A stretch of 64,000 bases of DNA from Cellulomonas fimi ATCC 484 (lineage in GTDB: Bacteria; Actinomycetota; Actinomycetes; Actinomycetales; Cellulomonadaceae). The translations under genes were made by a program, and so were the position numbers. Below, one piece after another: positions 17,520 through 23,887 of this stretch (the first letter of the stretch is position 1; every line of letters begins with the position of its first letter). Location: the NCBI RefSeq assembly GCF_000212695.1, contig NC_015514.1, forward strand, positions 3,720,001 through 3,784,000, read 5' to 3'. Below the pieces are notes generated by a model. It worked only from the letters and a program-made list of their open reading frames with translations, was not told where the DNA came from and did not search any database.

Positions 17520-17673
17520 TCTGCGCGTCCCCCGGCGAACCGCTCGACGGCCCGGCCGGGCACGCCCCCGGTATCTGCTCGCTCGGGCGCGGACTCCTGG
17601 ACGGTGCGAGGCTCGACCCTGGCAGGCTGGGCAGCCGCCCGCCCCGCGCCACCCGGACGAAGGACAGCCGCCG

Positions 17674-18981
17674 ATGCCGAACCGGATCCCCCCGCCCCGG
17701 CTCCCGGGATCGACGGGCGTGCCGGGCCCGTGGGACGCGCCGGTCCCGCCGCGCTCGGACGGGACGCGGTCGTGGCGGACGGTCGACCTCGACCCGGCGG
17801 TGCACGGGTTCGCGTTCCCCAACGCGTTCGTCGACGAGCACCTGACCCTGCCGAACGGCGCGACGATCACGACGCGCGGCCGGTGCGGCGGCATGTCGTA
17901 CGCGACGCTCGACTACTTCCTCTCCGGCCGGCCCGTCCCGCGCTGGTCCGCGGCGCTCTACGCCCCGGGCCGCGTGCCTCCCGACGACCACTGGCTCGCC
18001 CGCTACCTGCAGGAGCGGCAGGTGCAGTCGTTCATGACGGGCTCCGCCGCGAAGTTCCTCACGTGGACGCTGCACTCGGACGACGAGACGTGGGTGTTCA
18101 AGGGCGTGAGCCGCTGGACGAAGGAGGAGGAGGTCCCGCGGGTCGTGGCCGCCGTCGACGCCGGACGTCCGGTGGTGCTGGGGCTCGTCGTCGCGCGCTC
18201 GCTGGGCAAGGTCGGCCAGAACCACCAGGTCGTCGCGTACGGGTACGACCTCGACCGGGCCTCGGGCCGCACGGTGCTGCGCGTGTACGACCCGAACACG
18301 CCGGGCCGCGAGGTCCAGCTCGTCTCGGACGGCGACCACAAGGACTGGACCGCGACGAACGGCGCCCGCTGGCGCGGGTTCTTCGTGCAGGACTACACGC
18401 CCAAGCCGCCGCGCGTGCTGACCCGGACGGCACCCGCCCCGGACCTGCAGGTCCGCACGGGCGACGTCATGAAGCTGTCCCACGTCTGGACGGGCCGCAC
18501 GCTGCACTCGCACGCGCTCGCGTACACGCACGACGGGACGTCCGGTCAGCAGCAGGTGACGGCGTTCGACGGGTCCGACGACAACGACCTGTGGCGGCTC
18601 GAGGGCCCGCACGGGACCGCCGCGGGCGAGGGTGACGGCCGGGCGCTGCGGGACGGCGACGTGGTGCGGCTGCGGCACGTCTCCACGGGGCGCCGGCTGC
18701 ACAGCCACCACGGCTTCCCGTCGCCCGTGTCGGGGCAGCAGGAGGTCACGGCGTTCGGCGGGGACGACGCGGGGGACGCGAACGACGACTGGCGGGTCGA
18801 GTCCGACGGCGGCGGGAGGTGGCGCGCGGGAGGCCGGGTCCGGCTCGTGCACGTCGCGACCGGGGTCGCGCTGCACTCGCACCGGGCCGCGCACCAGCAG
18901 CACACGGCCGGCCAGCAGGAGGTCACGGGCTACGACGGCCGGGACGACAACGACTGGTGGTCGGTGCTCGAGGTCCGTTGA
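17674..18981 (+). CDS. Papain/C39-like cysteine peptidase-fold protein with MIR repeats
   Basis: A 435-residue protein I recognise only by parts. The N-terminal half (about 60-240) has a plausible papain-like triad: C71 in RGRCGGMSYATLDYF, H184 in GQNHQVVAYGYD and D206/N208 in VYDPNTP. The C-terminal half (about 260-435) contains three MIR-like beta-trefoil repeats, each with LHSH followed by GQQ(Q/E)VT and a D-rich W/DDW segment. MIR domains are mainly eukaryotic (protein O-mannosyltransferases, IP3 receptors). No signal peptide is seen, only a Pro-rich N-terminus. AAGGA lies ten bases before ATG at 17674. Activity is unproven; it could be a peptidase, an amidase/acyltransferase or a pseudo-enzyme. 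Confidence 0.8.
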   Translation: MPNRIPPPRLPGSTGVPGPWDAPVPPRSDGTRSWRTVDLDPAVHGFAFPNAFVDEHLTLPNGATITTRGRCGGMSYATLDYFLSGRPVPRWSAALYAPGRVPPDDHWLARYLQERQVQSFMTGSAAKFLTWTLHSDDETWVFKGVSRWTKEEEVPRVVAAVDAGRPVVLGLVVARSLGKVGQNHQVVAYGYDLDRASGRTVLRVYDPNTPGREVQLVSDGDHKDWTATNGARWRGFFVQDYTPKPPRVLTRTAPAPDLQVRTGDVMKLSHVWTGRTLHSHALAYTHDGTSGQQQVTAFDGSDDNDLWRLEGPHGTAAGEGDGRALRDGDVVRLRHVSTGRRLHSHHGFPSPVSGQQEVTAFGGDDAGDANDDWRVESDGGGRWRAGGRVRLVHVATGVALHSHRAAHQQHTAGQQEVTGYDGRDDNDWWSVLEVR

Positions 18982-19038
18982 CGCGGTCGCGTCGGCGGCA
19001 CCCTTCACCCCTGTTCCGAGGCGGTGACCGCCGCCAGA

Positions 19039-19071
19039 CCCAAATCCCGACCAATCGTCTCGGGATTTGGG
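19039..19071 (+). terminator. Perfect 12-bp hairpin before the sulfonate operon
   Basis: CCCAAATCCCGA (19039-19050) pairs with TCGGGATTTGGG (19060-19071) around a 9-base loop, 57 bases after the MIR gene. It can serve as that gene's terminator. Its AT-rich arms are unlike the other GC-only terminators here, so it could instead be an operator for the downstream sulfur operon. Confidence 0.65.
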
Positions 19072-19113
19072 AGGCCTCTTCTCACGCCTCGGCACGCCTG
19101 GCAGGGTCGTCCC

Positions 19114-19197
19114 ATGCCCGCACGCCGAGTCCTCGACGCCGCAGCGCCGCTGCACGCCGTCGTCGACGCGTGTCGGGCGTGTCGCGCCTGTCGCTGA
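19114..19197 (+). CDS. Cysteine-rich leader peptide of the sulfonate operon
   Basis: A 27-residue open frame, MPARRVLDAAAP... ending VDACRACRACR, with CAGGG eight bases before its ATG. All three cysteines are encoded by TGT, while TGC prevails in neighbouring genes. It ends 313 bases before the sulfonate-binding protein gene. Short Cys-codon leaders upstream of sulfur-acquisition genes are a known actinobacterial class: ribosome stalling when charged tRNA-Cys is scarce is thought to raise expression of downstream genes. Function here is inferred from position and composition. Confidence 0.7.
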   Translation: MPARRVLDAAAPLHAVVDACRACRACR

Positions 19198-19510
19198 GCG
19201 TCGACCCCGCCGTCGCCGCCCACCGTCGGGCCAGCGGCGCCCCCGCGCCGCGACCGTGACGCTCCCGGCCCTGCGTGCCGCGACCGTCACCGCCCTCGTC
19301 GGGCCCCTCTCCCCCGCGTCCGTGTCCGCGCACTCCTGACCTGGCACCACCGTCGGCGCCCCCGCGCGCCCGGCGTCGCACCACGGCCGCCACCCGGCCG
19401 GCCTCGCGCCGGCGACGCGGCGGCCGCGCACCGCTGCCGTCCGACCACGCACCCCGCGCCCTGCCGGGCCGTCCCGGGGTCGATCCGTCCTGCCATCGAG
19501 AGGACCACCC
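19198..19510 (+). promoter_or_regulatory. Leader region between Cys leader peptide and ssuA-like gene
   Basis: Non-coding, GC-rich and pyrimidine-rich. It contains an imperfect direct repeat (GCCGCGACCGTgACG / GCCGCGACCGTcACC, near 19246-19290). No classic terminator with a T-run is visible, so if this is an attenuator, Rho-dependent or translation-coupled control is more likely than intrinsic termination. A GAGAGGA ribosome-binding site precedes the next gene. Confidence 0.4.
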
Positions 19511-20671
19511 ATGTCCCGCACCGCCCGCACCTCCCGGCACCTCGCACGGCCGGCGCGCCCCGTCGCGCGCCGCACCGGCAGCCCGCCACGCACGCCGCGC
19601 CCCACGCGGGTCGCCGTCGCCGCGCTCGCGGTCCTCGCGCTCGCCGGCCTGGCCGCCTGCTCGCAGGCGAACGCCGAGGCCGGGCACGGCGCCGCGAGCG
19701 CACCGACCGGTGCGCTGCCGACCGCGGTCCCGGCCGGCACGACGCTCGTCGTCGGCGACCCCACCACGCAGAAGGCCGTCGAGATCGCAGGCGACGACCT
19801 CGACAGCGACCTGGGCTTCGAGATCGAGTGGGCGAACGTGTCCGGCGGTCCCGCGACGACGGAGGCGTTCCGCGCGGGGTCCCTCGACGTGGGCGCCGTC
19901 GCCGACATCCCGCCCATCCACGCCACGTGGACGGGCCTCGACGTGCAGATCGTGGCCGCCGCCTACCGGGAGGACTGGCAGGAGAACCCGATCTACTCGT
20001 TCGGCGTCGCGCCCGGCGTCGACGGCGTCGACGAGCTCGAGGACCTCCGCGGGCTGCGGGTCGCGTACAGCCCGGGCCAGGCGCAGGGCGCGATCGTGCT
20101 GCGCGCGCTGGAGGAGGCCGGGCTCACGCAGGACGACGTGACGCTCGTCGAGCTGCCGAGCACGGGTGACGTGTACCCGACCGCGCTCGCCGCCAAGGAG
20201 GTCGACGTCGCGCCGCTCGGCGGGATCCAGGTGGCCCGCTACCTCGACGCGTACGGGTCCGACGGCGCGCACGTCGTCGCGCACGGCCTGCGGGACGACC
20301 CGAGCACCCTGTACGTGCCGAGCGAGGTGCTCGCCGACCCGGCGAAGGCGGCCGCGCTGCGCGCCTACGTCGAGCTGTGGGCCGCCGCGAAGCTGTGGGT
20401 GCACGACCACCCGGAGGAGTGGAAGCAGGGGTACTACGTCGAGGACCAGGGCCTGAGCGCGGCGGACGCGGACTACCTGGTCGCGCACGCCGGCGTCCCG
20501 GACCTGCCGGAGGACTGGACCGAGCCGATCGCCCGCCACCAGGAGACGATCGACCTGCTCGCGCAGGCCACGGGCAACGACGTGCTCGACGCCGCCGACC
20601 TGTGGGACGAGCGGTTCGCCGCCGTCGTCGCCGAGGGCGCCGCGGCCTACCGGGCGGGGGCGGGCGGCTGA
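19511..20671 (+). CDS. ssuA: Sulfonate-type ABC transporter substrate-binding lipoprotein
   Basis: Periplasmic-type binding protein of the NMT1/SsuA class, 386 residues. A long Arg/Pro-rich n-region precedes the hydrophobic core and the lipobox LAAC (about residue 55). The fold carries LVVGDPTTQKAVEIA, TEAFRAGSLDVGAVADIPPI and LRVAYSPGQAQGAIVLRALEEAGL, typical of aliphatic sulfonate, taurine or related ligands. It overlaps the permease start (TGATG). With the Cys-codon leader and a flavin monooxygenase downstream, uptake of an organosulfur compound for cysteine supply is the best reading. Confidence 0.9.
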   Translation: MSRTARTSRHLARPARPVARRTGSPPRTPRPTRVAVAALAVLALAGLAACSQANAEAGHGAASAPTGALPTAVPAGTTLVVGDPTTQKAVEIAGDDLDSDLGFEIEWANVSGGPATTEAFRAGSLDVGAVADIPPIHATWTGLDVQIVAAAYREDWQENPIYSFGVAPGVDGVDELEDLRGLRVAYSPGQAQGAIVLRALEEAGLTQDDVTLVELPSTGDVYPTALAAKEVDVAPLGGIQVARYLDAYGSDGAHVVAHGLRDDPSTLYVPSEVLADPAKAAALRAYVELWAAAKLWVHDHPEEWKQGYYVEDQGLSAADADYLVAHAGVPDLPEDWTEPIARHQETIDLLAQATGNDVLDAADLWDERFAAVVAEGAAAYRAGAGG

Positions 20672-21525
20672 TGTCGACGCTCGCCGCACCCCGCGCACTC
20701 ACGGCCCCTCGCGCCGGCGGCCGGACCCGACCCGCCGTCCGACGCCGCACCCGGCGCCTCGGCCCCGGCCGGCCCGTGCCGGGCGGCGCCGCCGTCGGGC
20801 TGCTCGCGCTCCTGGCCGCCTGGTCGGTCGGCAGCGCCGTCGGGCTCGTCGACCCGCGCACGCTGTCCGCACCGTGGACCGTCGTCACGACCGCACGCGA
20901 CCTGCTGGCCGACGGCCGTCTGCAGGAGAACCTCGCGGTGTCCGCCGGGCGCGCGTCCGCCGGTCTCGCGCTCGGGATCGTCGCGGGCACGCTCCTCGCG
21001 CTGCTCTCGGGGCTGTCCCGGTGGGGTGAGGCGCTCGTCGACGGCCCCGTGCAGGTCAAGAGGGCGATCCCCAGCCTCGCCCTGCTGCCCCTGCTGATCC
21101 TCTGGCTCGGCATCGGGGAGACGATGAAGGTCGTCACGATCCTGCTCGGCGTCCTCGTGCCCGTGTACATCCACACGCACAACGGCCTGCGGACCATCGA
21201 CGCGCGCTACGTCGAGCTCGCGGAGACCATCGGGCTGTCGCGGTGGCAGTTCGTCCGCCGCGTCGTCCTGCCGGGCGCACTTCCCGGGTTCCTGCTGGGG
21301 CTGCGGTTCGCCGTCACCGGCGCCTGGTTGTCCCTGGTGGTGGTCGAGCAGATCAACGGCACGGCCGGCATCGGCTACATGATGGAGCTCGCACGCACCT
21401 ACGGGCAGACGGACGTCATCGTCGTCGGCCTCGTGCTGTACGGGTTGCTCGGGTTCGGCTCGGACGCGCTCGTCCGCCTCGTGCAGAGGAGGGCGCTCGC
21501 ATGGCGACGCACGCTCGCGGACTGA
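20671..21525 (+). CDS. ssuC: Sulfonate-type ABC transporter permease
   Basis: A 284-residue BPD-type permease with six predicted helices starting GGAAVGLLALLAAWSVGSAVG and the EAA-like loop ELAETIGLSRWQFVRRVVLPGALPG, characteristic of SsuC/TauC. Starts in the TGATG overlap with the binding-protein gene at 20671. The ATPase gene begins inside its last 25 bases, so all three subunits are tightly coupled. Confidence 0.93.
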   Translation: MSTLAAPRALTAPRAGGRTRPAVRRRTRRLGPGRPVPGGAAVGLLALLAAWSVGSAVGLVDPRTLSAPWTVVTTARDLLADGRLQENLAVSAGRASAGLALGIVAGTLLALLSGLSRWGEALVDGPVQVKRAIPSLALLPLLILWLGIGETMKVVTILLGVLVPVYIHTHNGLRTIDARYVELAETIGLSRWQFVRRVVLPGALPGFLLGLRFAVTGAWLSLVVVEQINGTAGIGYMMELARTYGQTDVIVVGLVLYGLLGFGSDALVRLVQRRALAWRRTLAD

Positions 21526-22496
21526 CCACCTCCGTGCCCGACCGGACCGACGAGCGGGTGCCCGCGAGGTCCGCCGTCCCGCCGCCCGTGCACGGCGTGC
21601 TCGCCGACGAGCGGACGACCACGTCCGACGGGTCCGTCGTGGTGCGCGACCTGGTCCGCTCCTACGGCCTGGCCGAGGGTGACGGGCGCGTGCTGCGCGA
21701 CCTCGACCTGACCATCGCGCCGGGCGAGCTCGTCGCGATCCTCGGCCGCTCCGGCTCGGGGAAGTCGACGCTGCTGCGCGCGCTCGCCGGGCTCGACCAC
21801 GACGTGCACGGCACCGGCACGGTCGCGGTCCCCGAGCGGGTGTCCGTCGTCTTCCAGGACTCGCGGCTGCTGCCGTGGGCCCGTGTGCTCGACAACGTGA
21901 CGCTCGGGCTGCGCGGCGGGGACGCGCGGGCTCTCGGGCGCGAGCGGCTCGCCGAGGTCGGCCTCGCGGGCCGCGAGCGCGCGTGGCCCACCGAGCTGTC
22001 GGGCGGCGAGCAGCAGCGCGTCTCCCTGGCCCGCTCGCTCGTCCGGGAGCCGCAGCTGCTGCTCGCCGACGAGCCGTTCGGGGCGCTCGACGCCCTCACC
22101 CGCATCCGTATGCACGACCTGCTGCGCGACCTGTGCGCGCGGCACCGGCCCGCGGTCCTGCTCGTCACGCACGACGTCGACGAGGCGATCGTGCTCGCGG
22201 AGCGGGTCGTCGTGCTCGACCACGGCCGGATCGCGCTCGACGTCCCGGTCGCGCTGGACGGCCCGCGGGACCCCGCCGACCCGCGGTTCGCCGACCTGCG
22301 CGCCCGCCTGCTCGACGCGCTCGGCGTGCCCGCTGCGGCGCGCCCCGCGACGGGAGCCGACGCCCCCGGCCCGACCGGTCACCTCGACCGGACCGCCTCC
22401 GACGACCGCACCGACGTCCACGAGCGCACCGACACGCACGACCGCGCCGACCTCTCCGACCGCAGCGACTCCCACGACACGAGGAGCACCCGATGA
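21501..22496 (+). CDS. ssuB: Sulfonate-type ABC transporter ATPase with Asp/His/Arg-rich tail
   Basis: Drives the importer by ATP hydrolysis; 331 residues. Walker A GRSGSGKST (about 82-90), Q-loop VVFQDSRLLPW, signature LSGGEQQRVSLARSL, Walker B LLLADEPFGALDAL and H-loop LLVTHDVDEA are all intact. The protein is longer than usual SsuB (about 250): it has a 45-residue N-terminal extension, and its last 35 residues form a low-complexity DRxD/HDR tail (22381-22496). ATG at 21501 follows GAGGAGG within the permease gene. It overlaps the monooxygenase start by ATGA. Confidence 0.93.
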   Translation: MATHARGLTTSVPDRTDERVPARSAVPPPVHGVLADERTTTSDGSVVVRDLVRSYGLAEGDGRVLRDLDLTIAPGELVAILGRSGSGKSTLLRALAGLDHDVHGTGTVAVPERVSVVFQDSRLLPWARVLDNVTLGLRGGDARALGRERLAEVGLAGRERAWPTELSGGEQQRVSLARSLVREPQLLLADEPFGALDALTRIRMHDLLRDLCARHRPAVLLVTHDVDEAIVLAERVVVLDHGRIALDVPVALDGPRDPADPRFADLRARLLDALGVPAAARPATGADAPGPTGHLDRTASDDRTDVHERTDTHDRADLSDRSDSHDTRSTR

Positions 22497-23887
22497 CCAC
22501 GCACACCCCGCCCACCCGCGCGCGCGGCGAGCACCGCCCGGGCCGCCTGCACCTCAACGCGTTCCTCATGAGCACGGGCCACCACGAGGCGTCGTGGCGG
22601 CTCCCCGAGAGCGACCCGTCGTACGTCTCGACGAACATCGCCTACCTGCAGCGCCTCGCGCAGACCGCGGAGCGCGGGAAGCTCGACTCGATCTTCTTCG
22701 CCGACGGCCCCGCGCTGCACCGGGACATCGGCCGCCGCCCGGCGGGGACGCTCGAGCCGACCGTCGTGCTCGCGGCCATCGCGGCGGTCACCGAGCGGAT
22801 CGGCCTCATCGCGACGGCGTCGACGACCTACAACGACCCGTACAACCTGGCGCGGCGGTTCGCGTCGGTGGACCACATCAGCGGCGGGCGCGCGGGGTGG
22901 AACGTGGTGACGACCGCGTTCGTCGAGGCGGCCCGCAACTTCGGGCTCGACGAGCAGCCCGCCCATCACGCCCGGTACGAGCGCGCGGCGGAGTTCCTCG
23001 AGGTCGCGCTCAAGCTGTGGGACTCGTGGGAGGACGACGCGGAGGTGGGCGACAAGGCCGCCGGCGTGTGGGGCGACTCGTCGCGCGTGCACCCCATCGG
23101 GCACGTCGGCGAGCACTTCTCGGTCGCCGGGGCGCTGACGACGCCGCGCTCGCCGCAGGCGTACCCGCTGCTCGTGCAGGCCGGGTCGTCGGAAGACGGC
23201 AAGGACCTGGCCGCCCGCTACGCGGAGGCAGTGTTCACGGCGCAGCAGACGCTGGACGACGCGCAGCGGTTCTACGCCGACCTCAAGCGCCGGGCCGTCG
23301 AGTGGGGTCGTGACCCCGCGACGATCCTCGTCCTGCCGGGCATCGTGCCGGTGCTCGGCGCGACCGCCGCCGAGGCCCGCGAGAAGGAGGACGAGCTCGA
23401 CCGGCTCATCGCGCCCGAGTACGCACGCCGCCAGCTCGCCGCGACCCTGCGCGTCGACCCCGACGACCTGCCGCTCGACCGCGAGCTCCCCGCCGACCTG
23501 CCGTCGGAGGACGAGATCGAGGGCGCGAAGAGCCGGTACACGCTCATCGTCGACCTGGCCCGCCGGGAGCGGCTGACCGTGCGTCAGCTCATCGGGCGGC
23601 TGGGCGGCGGCCGCGGGCACCGCACGTTCTCCGGCACGCCCGAGCAGGTCGCCGACACGCTGCAGGACTGGTACGACCAGGGCGCCGCCGACGGCTTCAA
23701 CGTCATGCCCGCCGTCCTGCCGTCGGGCCTGGAGGAGTTCGTGGACCAGGTGGTCCCGATCCTCGTCGAGCGCGGGCTGTTCCGGTCCGAGTACGAGGGC
23801 ACGACCCTGCGCGACCACTACGGCCTGCCCCGGCCCACCAACCCCCACACGGCGGCGCGCCTCGCGGCCGCGGAGGTCACCCGTTGA
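22493..23887 (+). CDS. Flavin-dependent monooxygenase of the NtaA/SnaA/DszA family
   Basis: LLM-class oxygenase using reduced FMN from a separate reductase, 464 residues. Family signs are RLHLNAFLMSTGHHEASWR, ERGKLDSIFFADGP, TYNDPYNLARRFASVDHISGGRAGWN and QAGSSEDGKDLAARYAEAVFTA. Members desulfonate or oxidise organosulfur compounds, or degrade aminopolycarboxylates such as nitrilotriacetate. In this operon, oxidative release of sulfite from an imported sulfonate or sulfone is most likely. ATG at 22493 overlaps the ATPase stop. No flavin reductase gene is adjacent, so it must be supplied from elsewhere. Confidence 0.92.
   Translation: MTTHTPPTRARGEHRPGRLHLNAFLMSTGHHEASWRLPESDPSYVSTNIAYLQRLAQTAERGKLDSIFFADGPALHRDIGRRPAGTLEPTVVLAAIAAVTERIGLIATASTTYNDPYNLARRFASVDHISGGRAGWNVVTTAFVEAARNFGLDEQPAHHARYERAAEFLEVALKLWDSWEDDAEVGDKAAGVWGDSSRVHPIGHVGEHFSVAGALTTPRSPQAYPLLVQAGSSEDGKDLAARYAEAVFTAQQTLDDAQRFYADLKRRAVEWGRDPATILVLPGIVPVLGATAAEAREKEDELDRLIAPEYARRQLAATLRVDPDDLPLDRELPADLPSEDEIEGAKSRYTLIVDLARRERLTVRQLIGRLGGGRGHRTFSGTPEQVADTLQDWYDQGAADGFNVMPAVLPSGLEEFVDQVVPILVERGLFRSEYEGTTLRDHYGLPRPTNPHTAARLAAAEVTR

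Follow-up and report, generated by a model that had tools for sequence, protein, structure and literature searches.

Sequence analysis points to a conserved, UGU-coded cysteine leader peptide ahead of an SsuABC-like operon in Cellulomonas

The short open reading frame at positions 19114..19197 of the forward strand of the window (the whole 64,000-nucleotide stretch of the Cellulomonas fimi ATCC 484 genome analyzed here) has the marks of a genuine, conserved cysteine leader peptide belonging to the known class of actinobacterial cysteine leaders. It lies upstream of, and on the same strand as, genes with an inferred role in sulfur supply, and its conservation together with its odd codon choice suggests that it acts as a built-in cysteine gauge. 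Taken as a whole, the explanation that we favor is a cysteine-responsive leader peptide with a leaderless start that controls the operon by Rho-dependent attenuation, to which we assign a probability of about 0.6. Regarding its parts, sensing of charged Cys-tRNA by the leader is very likely, and Rho as the readout is a matter of even odds. The argument is built on the reading frame, its conservation, its codon bias, the spacing of a -10-like hexamer, the composition of the downstream spacer and the recurrence of such leaders before other cysteine operons, all of which are shown by the sequence data. The type of switch itself is known; the novelty lies in the operon, in the genus and most of all in the pattern of TGT codons.

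A cysteine-ending frame in front of an SsuABC-like operon

The frame comprises 27 codons, encodes the peptide MPARRVLDAAAPLHAVVDACRACRACR and ends in CRACRACR at a stop codon at 19195 (here and below, peptide ends are given up to the stop). Its three cysteine codons (19171-19173, 19180-19182 and 19189-19191), for which we assume a regulatory role, are all TGT, adjacent ones being separated by two codons, and 313 nt separate the end of the leader from the start codon of the ssuA-like gene (ATG at 19511). On the frame, its three TGT codons and this distance, the first-pass annotation, which had proposed a cysteine-sensing leader peptide at this place, had read the sequence correctly. A frame that ends in cysteines is by itself unremarkable in the window, since ten ORFs (eight on the forward and two on the reverse strand) encode three or more cysteines within their last 10 codons, where 0.7 such ORFs are expected per shuffle; the other nine are probably wrong-frame readings of coding DNA. 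Among the ten, the leader is the only one in which all Cys codons are TGT, and no all-TGT Cys-ending ORF arose in 40 dinucleotide shuffles of the window. Searching the 27-residue peptide against the NCBIfam profiles returned no family at E-values up to 10, and no Rfam family matched anywhere in the window at gathering score. The gene directly 5' of the leader (17671-18981) encodes a MIR-domain protein (PF02815), and a similar C-terminus is seen by eye upstream of the leader at L010, L015 and L017.

Downstream of the leader and likewise on the forward strand follow genes for an SsuA-like substrate-binding lipoprotein (19511..20671; PF09084 and PF12974 above cut-off), an SsuC-like ABC permease (20668..21525; PF00528 above cut-off), an SsuB-like ABC ATPase (21519..22496, exact start uncertain; PF00005 above cut-off) and an FMN monooxygenase of the NtaA/DmoA family (22493..23887). 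A Shine-Dalgarno sequence of the SsuA-like gene, GAGAGGA, can be read at 19498..19504 of the same strand. The earlier description of the operon as SsuABC plus an NtaA-type monooxygenase stands for the monooxygenase, which reaches 553.5 bits with TIGR03860 (cut-off 279.7), but the three Ssu-like proteins remain below the cut-offs of the sulfonate models: the SsuA-like protein scores 72.7 bits with TIGR01728 (cut-off 163.5), and the best NCBIfam matches of the SsuC-like and SsuB-like proteins are NF008470 at 206.9 bits (cut-off 347) and NF008420 at 238.5 bits (cut-off 395). A sulfonate substrate is therefore putative, and we infer a role in sulfur supply. At the corresponding Cellulomonas loci (L001-L017) a short inverted repeat surrounds the Shine-Dalgarno sequence in ssuA ribosome-binding sites (for example GUCCU...AGGAC, UGCC...GGCA, CCCU...AGGG) and recurs, as judged by eye, with changed pairs between groups. 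The SsuA match at L002 (Cellulomonas terrae) contains one in-frame TGA, which may be no gene break because the match starts upstream of the likely ATG.

Conservation within the genus and occurrence beyond it

An SsuA ortholog is encoded in 17 of 81 genomes of the genus Cellulomonas. All 15 other loci with readable upstream DNA (L014, one of the 16 relatives, has only 111 nt upstream and is omitted from the leader counts) possess, in front of ssuA, a short ORF whose cysteines cluster toward the stop, ending for example in ...RACRSCPATSCR, ...SCRACPACR, ...GACQPCR or ...SCRPCA. The Cys codons, whose retention in relatives with the same operon had been singled out beforehand as one of two decisive points, are thus kept at every readable Cellulomonas locus, and these conserved Cys-ending leaders, together with two further ones in the same genome (see below), support the earlier reading of the frame as a leader that may sense cysteine. 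That it is a chance ORF without function could be argued from the abundance of short ORFs in DNA of 74% GC and from the nine other window ORFs that pass the same cysteine threshold; as this is contradicted both by the conservation in 15 of 15 readable relatives and by the absence of the all-TGT form from the shuffles, we regard it as hardly credible.

We compared ten close pairs of Cellulomonas loci, which partly overlap and share species and hence are not independent. Over the final 11 codons and the stop, identity within these pairs amounts to 89-100%. In each pair pS of the leader is below pS of ssuA, and pN of the leader is about equal to its pS overall (ratio 1.03). Preservation of the end codons combined with a pN close to pS argues for a function at the level of codons rather than for a folded protein.

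A broader survey covered 80 named loci, ten of them from Cellulomonas and overlapping the genus set; 79 have enough upstream DNA, 74 carry relatives of all three of SsuC, SsuB and the monooxygenase, and the listing of upstream leaders took 72, omitting eight Cellulomonas loci. Requiring two or more Cys among the last 8 codons and taking the reverse strand as a control, we found such frames at 9 of 9 Cellulomonas loci (none in reverse), at 19 of 58 loci of other Actinobacteria (4 in reverse, 3.2 expected in shuffles) and at none of 12 proteobacterial loci (3 in reverse). A requirement of three or more Cys among the last 15 codons gave forward and reverse counts of 6 and 0 for the 9 Cellulomonas loci, 15 and 3 for the 58 loci of other Actinobacteria and 1 and 0 for the 12 of Proteobacteria. 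The frames of other genera end for instance in ...ACRPTPCR (Cellulosimicrobium), ...CRPCRRCRR (Isoptericola), ...CCPPCLQN (Arthrobacter) or ...RGCCRCWTTARGCC (Catellatospora). Because 39 of the 58 other actinobacterial loci lack a leader by the 8-codon criterion, the leader does not necessarily accompany the operon; diverged putative Cys leaders are present in several other actinobacterial genera and are far from universal before this operon.

Cellulomonas leaders favor UGU where the genes use UGC

Twelve genes of the window (4465 codons) encode cysteine by 12 TGC codons and no TGT. The exclusive use of TGT that had been noted for the window leader holds, and it extends to the stop-proximal Cys codon of two further, unrelated leader families of the genus, those preceding cysK and the sulfite reductase gene (sir). 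This codon is TGT in 14 of 16 ssuA leaders, 22 of 22 cysK leaders and 23 of 23 sir leaders (59 of 61 in total), and in the genes that follow TGT accounts for 0 of 155 Cys codons in sir and 0 of 16 in SsuA, the cysK genes contributing no Cys codon to this count. Moving away from the stop, the last two Cys codons are both TGT in all 22 cysK leaders, and the second-nearest Cys codon is TGC in all 23 sir leaders. When all Cys codons are counted, TGT and TGC occur 41 and 6 times in the 16 ssuA leaders, 60 and 17 times in the cysK leaders and 66 and 90 times in the sir leaders, the counts for the latter two families reaching about 30 codons before the stop. Among the remaining pyrimidine-ending codons of the 16 ssuA leaders, T is the third base in 16 of 227. 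Of 15 ssuA leaders from outside Cellulomonas, 12 have TGC as their last Cys codon, which identifies the TGT pattern as a feature of this genus.

These counts make it conceivable, at slightly less than even odds, that Cellulomonas employs UGU as a dedicated sensor codon. Bacteria usually have one tRNA-Cys that reads both UGU and UGC. If the same is true here, the choice of UGU does not stem from selective charging of isoacceptors and would have to come from slower decoding of NNU codons or reflect a role of the U that is not yet known. Codon bias in attenuator leaders has been ascribed to selective isoacceptor charging (PMC1183508), and NNC codons are described as being decoded faster than NNU codons, most clearly when one G-wobble tRNA reads both, with Cys among the cases cited (PMC4046918). 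None of the literature matches listed reports a preference for UGU in leaders. A stop-proximal codon that the following genes avoid offers a clean natural test of decoding speed against isoacceptor charging.

The leader start resembles that of a leaderless mRNA

The first-pass annotation had credited the frame with a plausible ribosome-binding site, a point that does not survive: no Shine-Dalgarno sequence of the AGGA or GAGG type lies 4-17 nt before the ATG. The G-rich stretch that had been taken for it, CAGGGT (19102..19107, forward strand, 6 nt before the ATG), is probably better read as a -10 hexamer. A hexamer xAxxxT occupies the corresponding position in all of 22 leaders compared (15 from Cellulomonas and 7 from other genera, with leaders and start codons chosen by hand and related species not independent of each other). 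Its end lies 6, 7 or 8 nt ahead of the start codon, at exactly 7 nt in 13 leaders, compared with a mean of 1.5 and a maximum of 7 of 22 at control offsets. None of the 22 is preceded by a Shine-Dalgarno sequence by the patterns used. The set was drawn from 31 hand-chosen leaders by leaving out the near-duplicates L012, L034 and L086 and six leaders of the Arthrobacter type, which form a separate group and instead carry AGGAGG in 6 of 6 cases. Given the hexamer at 6-8 nt throughout, the mRNA of the window leader is probably leaderless. As CAGGGT is a weak match and a scan with the sigma-70 consensus found no promoter, the -10 reading rests on position and conservation. A candidate -35 hexamer, TTCTCA (19079..19084, forward strand, assigned by eye), is located 17 nt before the -10, and TTGTCA occupies the same place at L002, L003, L007, L016 and L017. 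Probably leaderless leaders in Cellulomonas and Shine-Dalgarno-led ones in Arthrobacter thus provide a natural side-by-side comparison in front of the same operon.

Upstream of the predicted promoter, and consequently outside the predicted mRNA, lies a perfect 12-bp inverted repeat, CCCAAATCCCGA-N9-TCGGGATTTGGG (19039..19071), which is partly kept at L010 and L015 and could be operator-like or serve as the terminator of the upstream MIR-domain gene. It is overlapped by the element TCTCGGGATTTGGGAG at 19058-19073. The pattern TCTCAnnATnnGGA matches three times in the genome and not once in a reversed-pattern control; the sites precede the sulfite reductase leader and a rhodanese-like gene, the third (L127) being in an apparently unrelated place, and at 22 of 25 sulfite reductase loci across the genus a looser form occurs at some point within the 600 nt upstream. 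These elements raise the alternative that a DNA-binding sulfur regulator, bound to a TCTC(A/G)-type element and the inverted repeat, exerts the main control and the leader only fine-tunes. This would account for the genomic sites and for the related element and repeat upstream of the window promoter, but it leaves the conserved Cys codons and the TGT bias unexplained, the window element departs from the pattern and one genome hit looks unrelated, and we therefore judge it improbable as the main control; such a regulator may act at the upstream element in addition to the leader. In the same genome, near 2678067 (L126), an element TCTCACGATGCGGA precedes the rhodanese-like gene without an obvious Cys leader, which hints at an operator of a sulfur regulon.

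Two further leader families precede cysteine-pathway genes

Two more cysteine-rich leaders were found in the genome of C. fimi. One ORF, ending in MCCCCPRTD, precedes a sulfite reductase gene that has two genes of the PAPS-reductase family behind it; the other, MSVLHRTVAPVACACVAPCCRCL, precedes cysK and has a GGAGG Shine-Dalgarno sequence. For each gene we examined 30 loci of the genus, from 78 matches for cysK and 55 for sir. Of these, a motif located 24 for cysK and 25 for sir. The cysK leader is present in 22 of the 24, with less than 300 nt of upstream DNA at each of the two misses, and the sir leader in 23 of 25, the misses being L159, with 193 nt upstream, and L177, with full upstream DNA. 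In one high-GC genus, three sulfur or cysteine operons would thus each begin with a cysteine leader.

The sir leaders (L119:3084-3170 and L158-L187) have a conserved two-cluster layout (e.g. ...CRCSC...MCCCCPRTD) and start with GTG or ATG, preceded at a distance of about 6 nt by a CAnCCT-like -10; at the sir loci checked by eye, a TCTC(A/G)-type element lies about 56 nt upstream of the leader start. The cysK leaders (L113, reverse strand 1210-1281, and L128-L157) are conserved, Shine-Dalgarno-led and end in CC(R/P)C(L/R). Searching the genome for CxxCR followed by a stop gave six hits including the window leader, the other five offering no credible leader, and an ORF ending in PCSGCC (L122) in front of another substrate-binding gene was rejected, as its GTG start lies inside apparent coding DNA.

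The C-rich spacer and the route of the readout

The region between leader and operon (19198..19510, forward strand) is rich in C and poor in G (0.51 and 0.31) and is a candidate Rho-loading region. Its C/G ratio is 1.66 in the window and 1.66-2.55 in 16 of 16 Cellulomonas loci, some of these spacers being shortened by automatic start calls, and is lower, 1.20-2.00, at ten loci of other genera. The automatic ssuA starts used for these values differ from those of the pairing tests at L002, L003, L004, L007 and L015, and five of the 31 chosen leaders (L034, L035, L036, L037 and L039) have no spacer value. The C-over-G skew of the best 150-nt stretch of the window spacer is attained by 0.4% of 150-nt windows over both strands; for comparison with intergenic DNA there are 22 values from a rough gene caller. 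As C-rich RNA is not specific for Rho, the composition is suggestive. Heavy predicted pairing of the spacer (-148.9 kcal/mol, no better than shuffles, z 0.21) does not speak for Rho, which prefers open RNA. The longer stretch 19030-19520, which folds more stably than its shuffles (z -2.46), takes in the inverted repeat that precedes the predicted transcript.

The first-pass annotation had found no intrinsic terminator and had concluded that the mechanism would differ from classical attenuation. We agree: a scan of 18950-19560 detected no terminator-like site, in what is a weak test since 0.0 sites are expected in shuffles, and the intrinsic terminator with U run that would follow the leader in a classical terminator/antiterminator attenuator was not found. 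As readouts it had suggested either altered translation downstream or altered access of Rho, and these two fared differently in our analysis.

In translational attenuation the leader would sequester the ssuA ribosome-binding site by base pairing until stalling of a ribosome at the Cys codons releases it. The closest tested precedent, in Mycobacterium smegmatis, is described as being of this kind (PMC13236596, PMC9031893), and in an RNAalifold fold of eight loci part of the Cys region does pair with the start of ssuA. Covariation over that structure as a whole is unfavorable, though (term +1.27), and none of the eight pairs between the two regions is changed on both sides. The duplex of leader tail and ssuA start belongs to the weaker 30% of scanned positions in 14 of 14 loci, with a best relative rank of 87 of 123 (L016 and L017, missed by the start pattern, were excluded here and are present in the ribosome-mask folding). 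Having the ribosome at the first Cys codon rather than at the stop shifts the cost of opening the ssuA Shine-Dalgarno sequence by only -0.29 kcal/mol on average and lowers it in 8 of 16 loci. Neither the duplex scan nor the ribosome-mask folding thus supports pairing as a Shine-Dalgarno switch, and the leader is 103-313 nt away from ssuA. We consider this readout unlikely, though it is the strongest of the alternatives to Rho-dependent attenuation, the proposed readout that the C-rich spacer does fit.

The lack of a terminator, the lack of support for pairing and the C-rich spacer make Rho-dependent attenuation relieved by stalling the best fit. In this mechanism, transcription would start at, or a base or two from, the ATG at 19114, and the leader would be translated from a leaderless mRNA. 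With plentiful charged Cys-tRNA, ribosomes would pass the three UGU codons and be released at the stop at 19195, exposing the C-rich, G-poor spacer, on which Rho would load and end transcription before ssuA. With cysteine in short supply, the ribosome would wait on the UGU codons next to the stop. As the last of them is one codon before the stop, the beginning of the spacer would then be shielded by the ribosome, letting RNA polymerase proceed into the sulfur-scavenging genes.

Relation to known leader peptides

In the Rho-dependent leader tnaC, a ribosome stalled near the stop is proposed to block Rho on C-rich RNA. A similar course is proposed for CruR, in which a ribosome stalled near the leader stop would block Rho on C-rich RNA (PMC9426467). 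Both stall by arrest of the nascent chain, in contrast to the window leader, which on the proposed reading would stall by shortage of charged tRNA. CruR also provides a precedent, with Rho-dependent termination (PMC9426467), for a different sensor, namely that the nascent Cys-rich peptide responds to metal or redox state in the manner of the CruR CXXC motif instead of to tRNA charging. The Cys-x-x-Cys spacing of the window peptide would suit such a role, but the spacing and flanks of the Cys residues differ widely across species and genera, the synonymous choice of TGT is irrelevant to peptide chemistry and the other two leader families sit before cysteine-pathway genes, which leaves metal or redox sensing very improbable compared with sensing of Cys-tRNA.

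The class of cysteine leaders was predicted in 2005 (PMC1262725), showed up in ribosome profiling in 2015 (PMC4633059) and, in M. smegmatis, is described by citing papers as tested in 2020 (PMC13236596, PMC9031893). With this class the window leader shares the Cys cluster at the stop, the position before an operon of presumed sulfur supply and the absence of a detectable intrinsic terminator. The mycobacterial polycysteine leaderless short ORFs (Canestrari et al. 2020; PMC4633059) resemble it in being leaderless, as is predicted here, in their stop-near Cys codons and in preceding sulfur or cysteine genes, and the nirA/MSMEG_4527 uORF (Shell et al. 2015, PMC4633059) seems to correspond to the sulfite reductase leader of Cellulomonas. 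They differ in that their Cys codons are contiguous (PMC9031893), a defining trait that the window leader lacks, whereas those of the Cellulomonas ssuA leader are spaced and nearly all TGT; the latter, moreover, precedes an ABC transporter and FMN monooxygenase, with a spacer of 103-313 nt. The candidate cys leaders of Mycobacterium, P. acnes and B. longum described by Seliverstov et al. 2005 (PMC1262725) likewise have Cys codons, in runs, near the stop and no conserved terminator hairpin, and Rho-dependent termination was suggested for them, a prediction that the authors call rather weak. These leaders precede cys operons and cbs, and the parts of that article covered mention neither a sulfonate-type operon nor Cellulomonas. 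In Rhodobacterales, uORFC-8-2 before cysS (PMC8632094) is also a short uORF with conserved Cys codons ahead of a cysteine-related gene; unlike the window leader, it has tandem Cys, predominantly UGC, and an intrinsic terminator.

Among the literature matches listed, none reports a cysteine leader from Cellulomonas or one preceding a sulfonate-type operon, and the present case would extend cysteine leader peptides to an organosulfur-scavenging operon. In Streptomyces lividans, the leaderless 'methionine' leader metL, MSTTSDRTPATEATTTPGARCMCRRMCAF, which precedes metNIQ (PMC8079986), closes with three Cys and looks no less like a cysteine leader than like a methionine leader.
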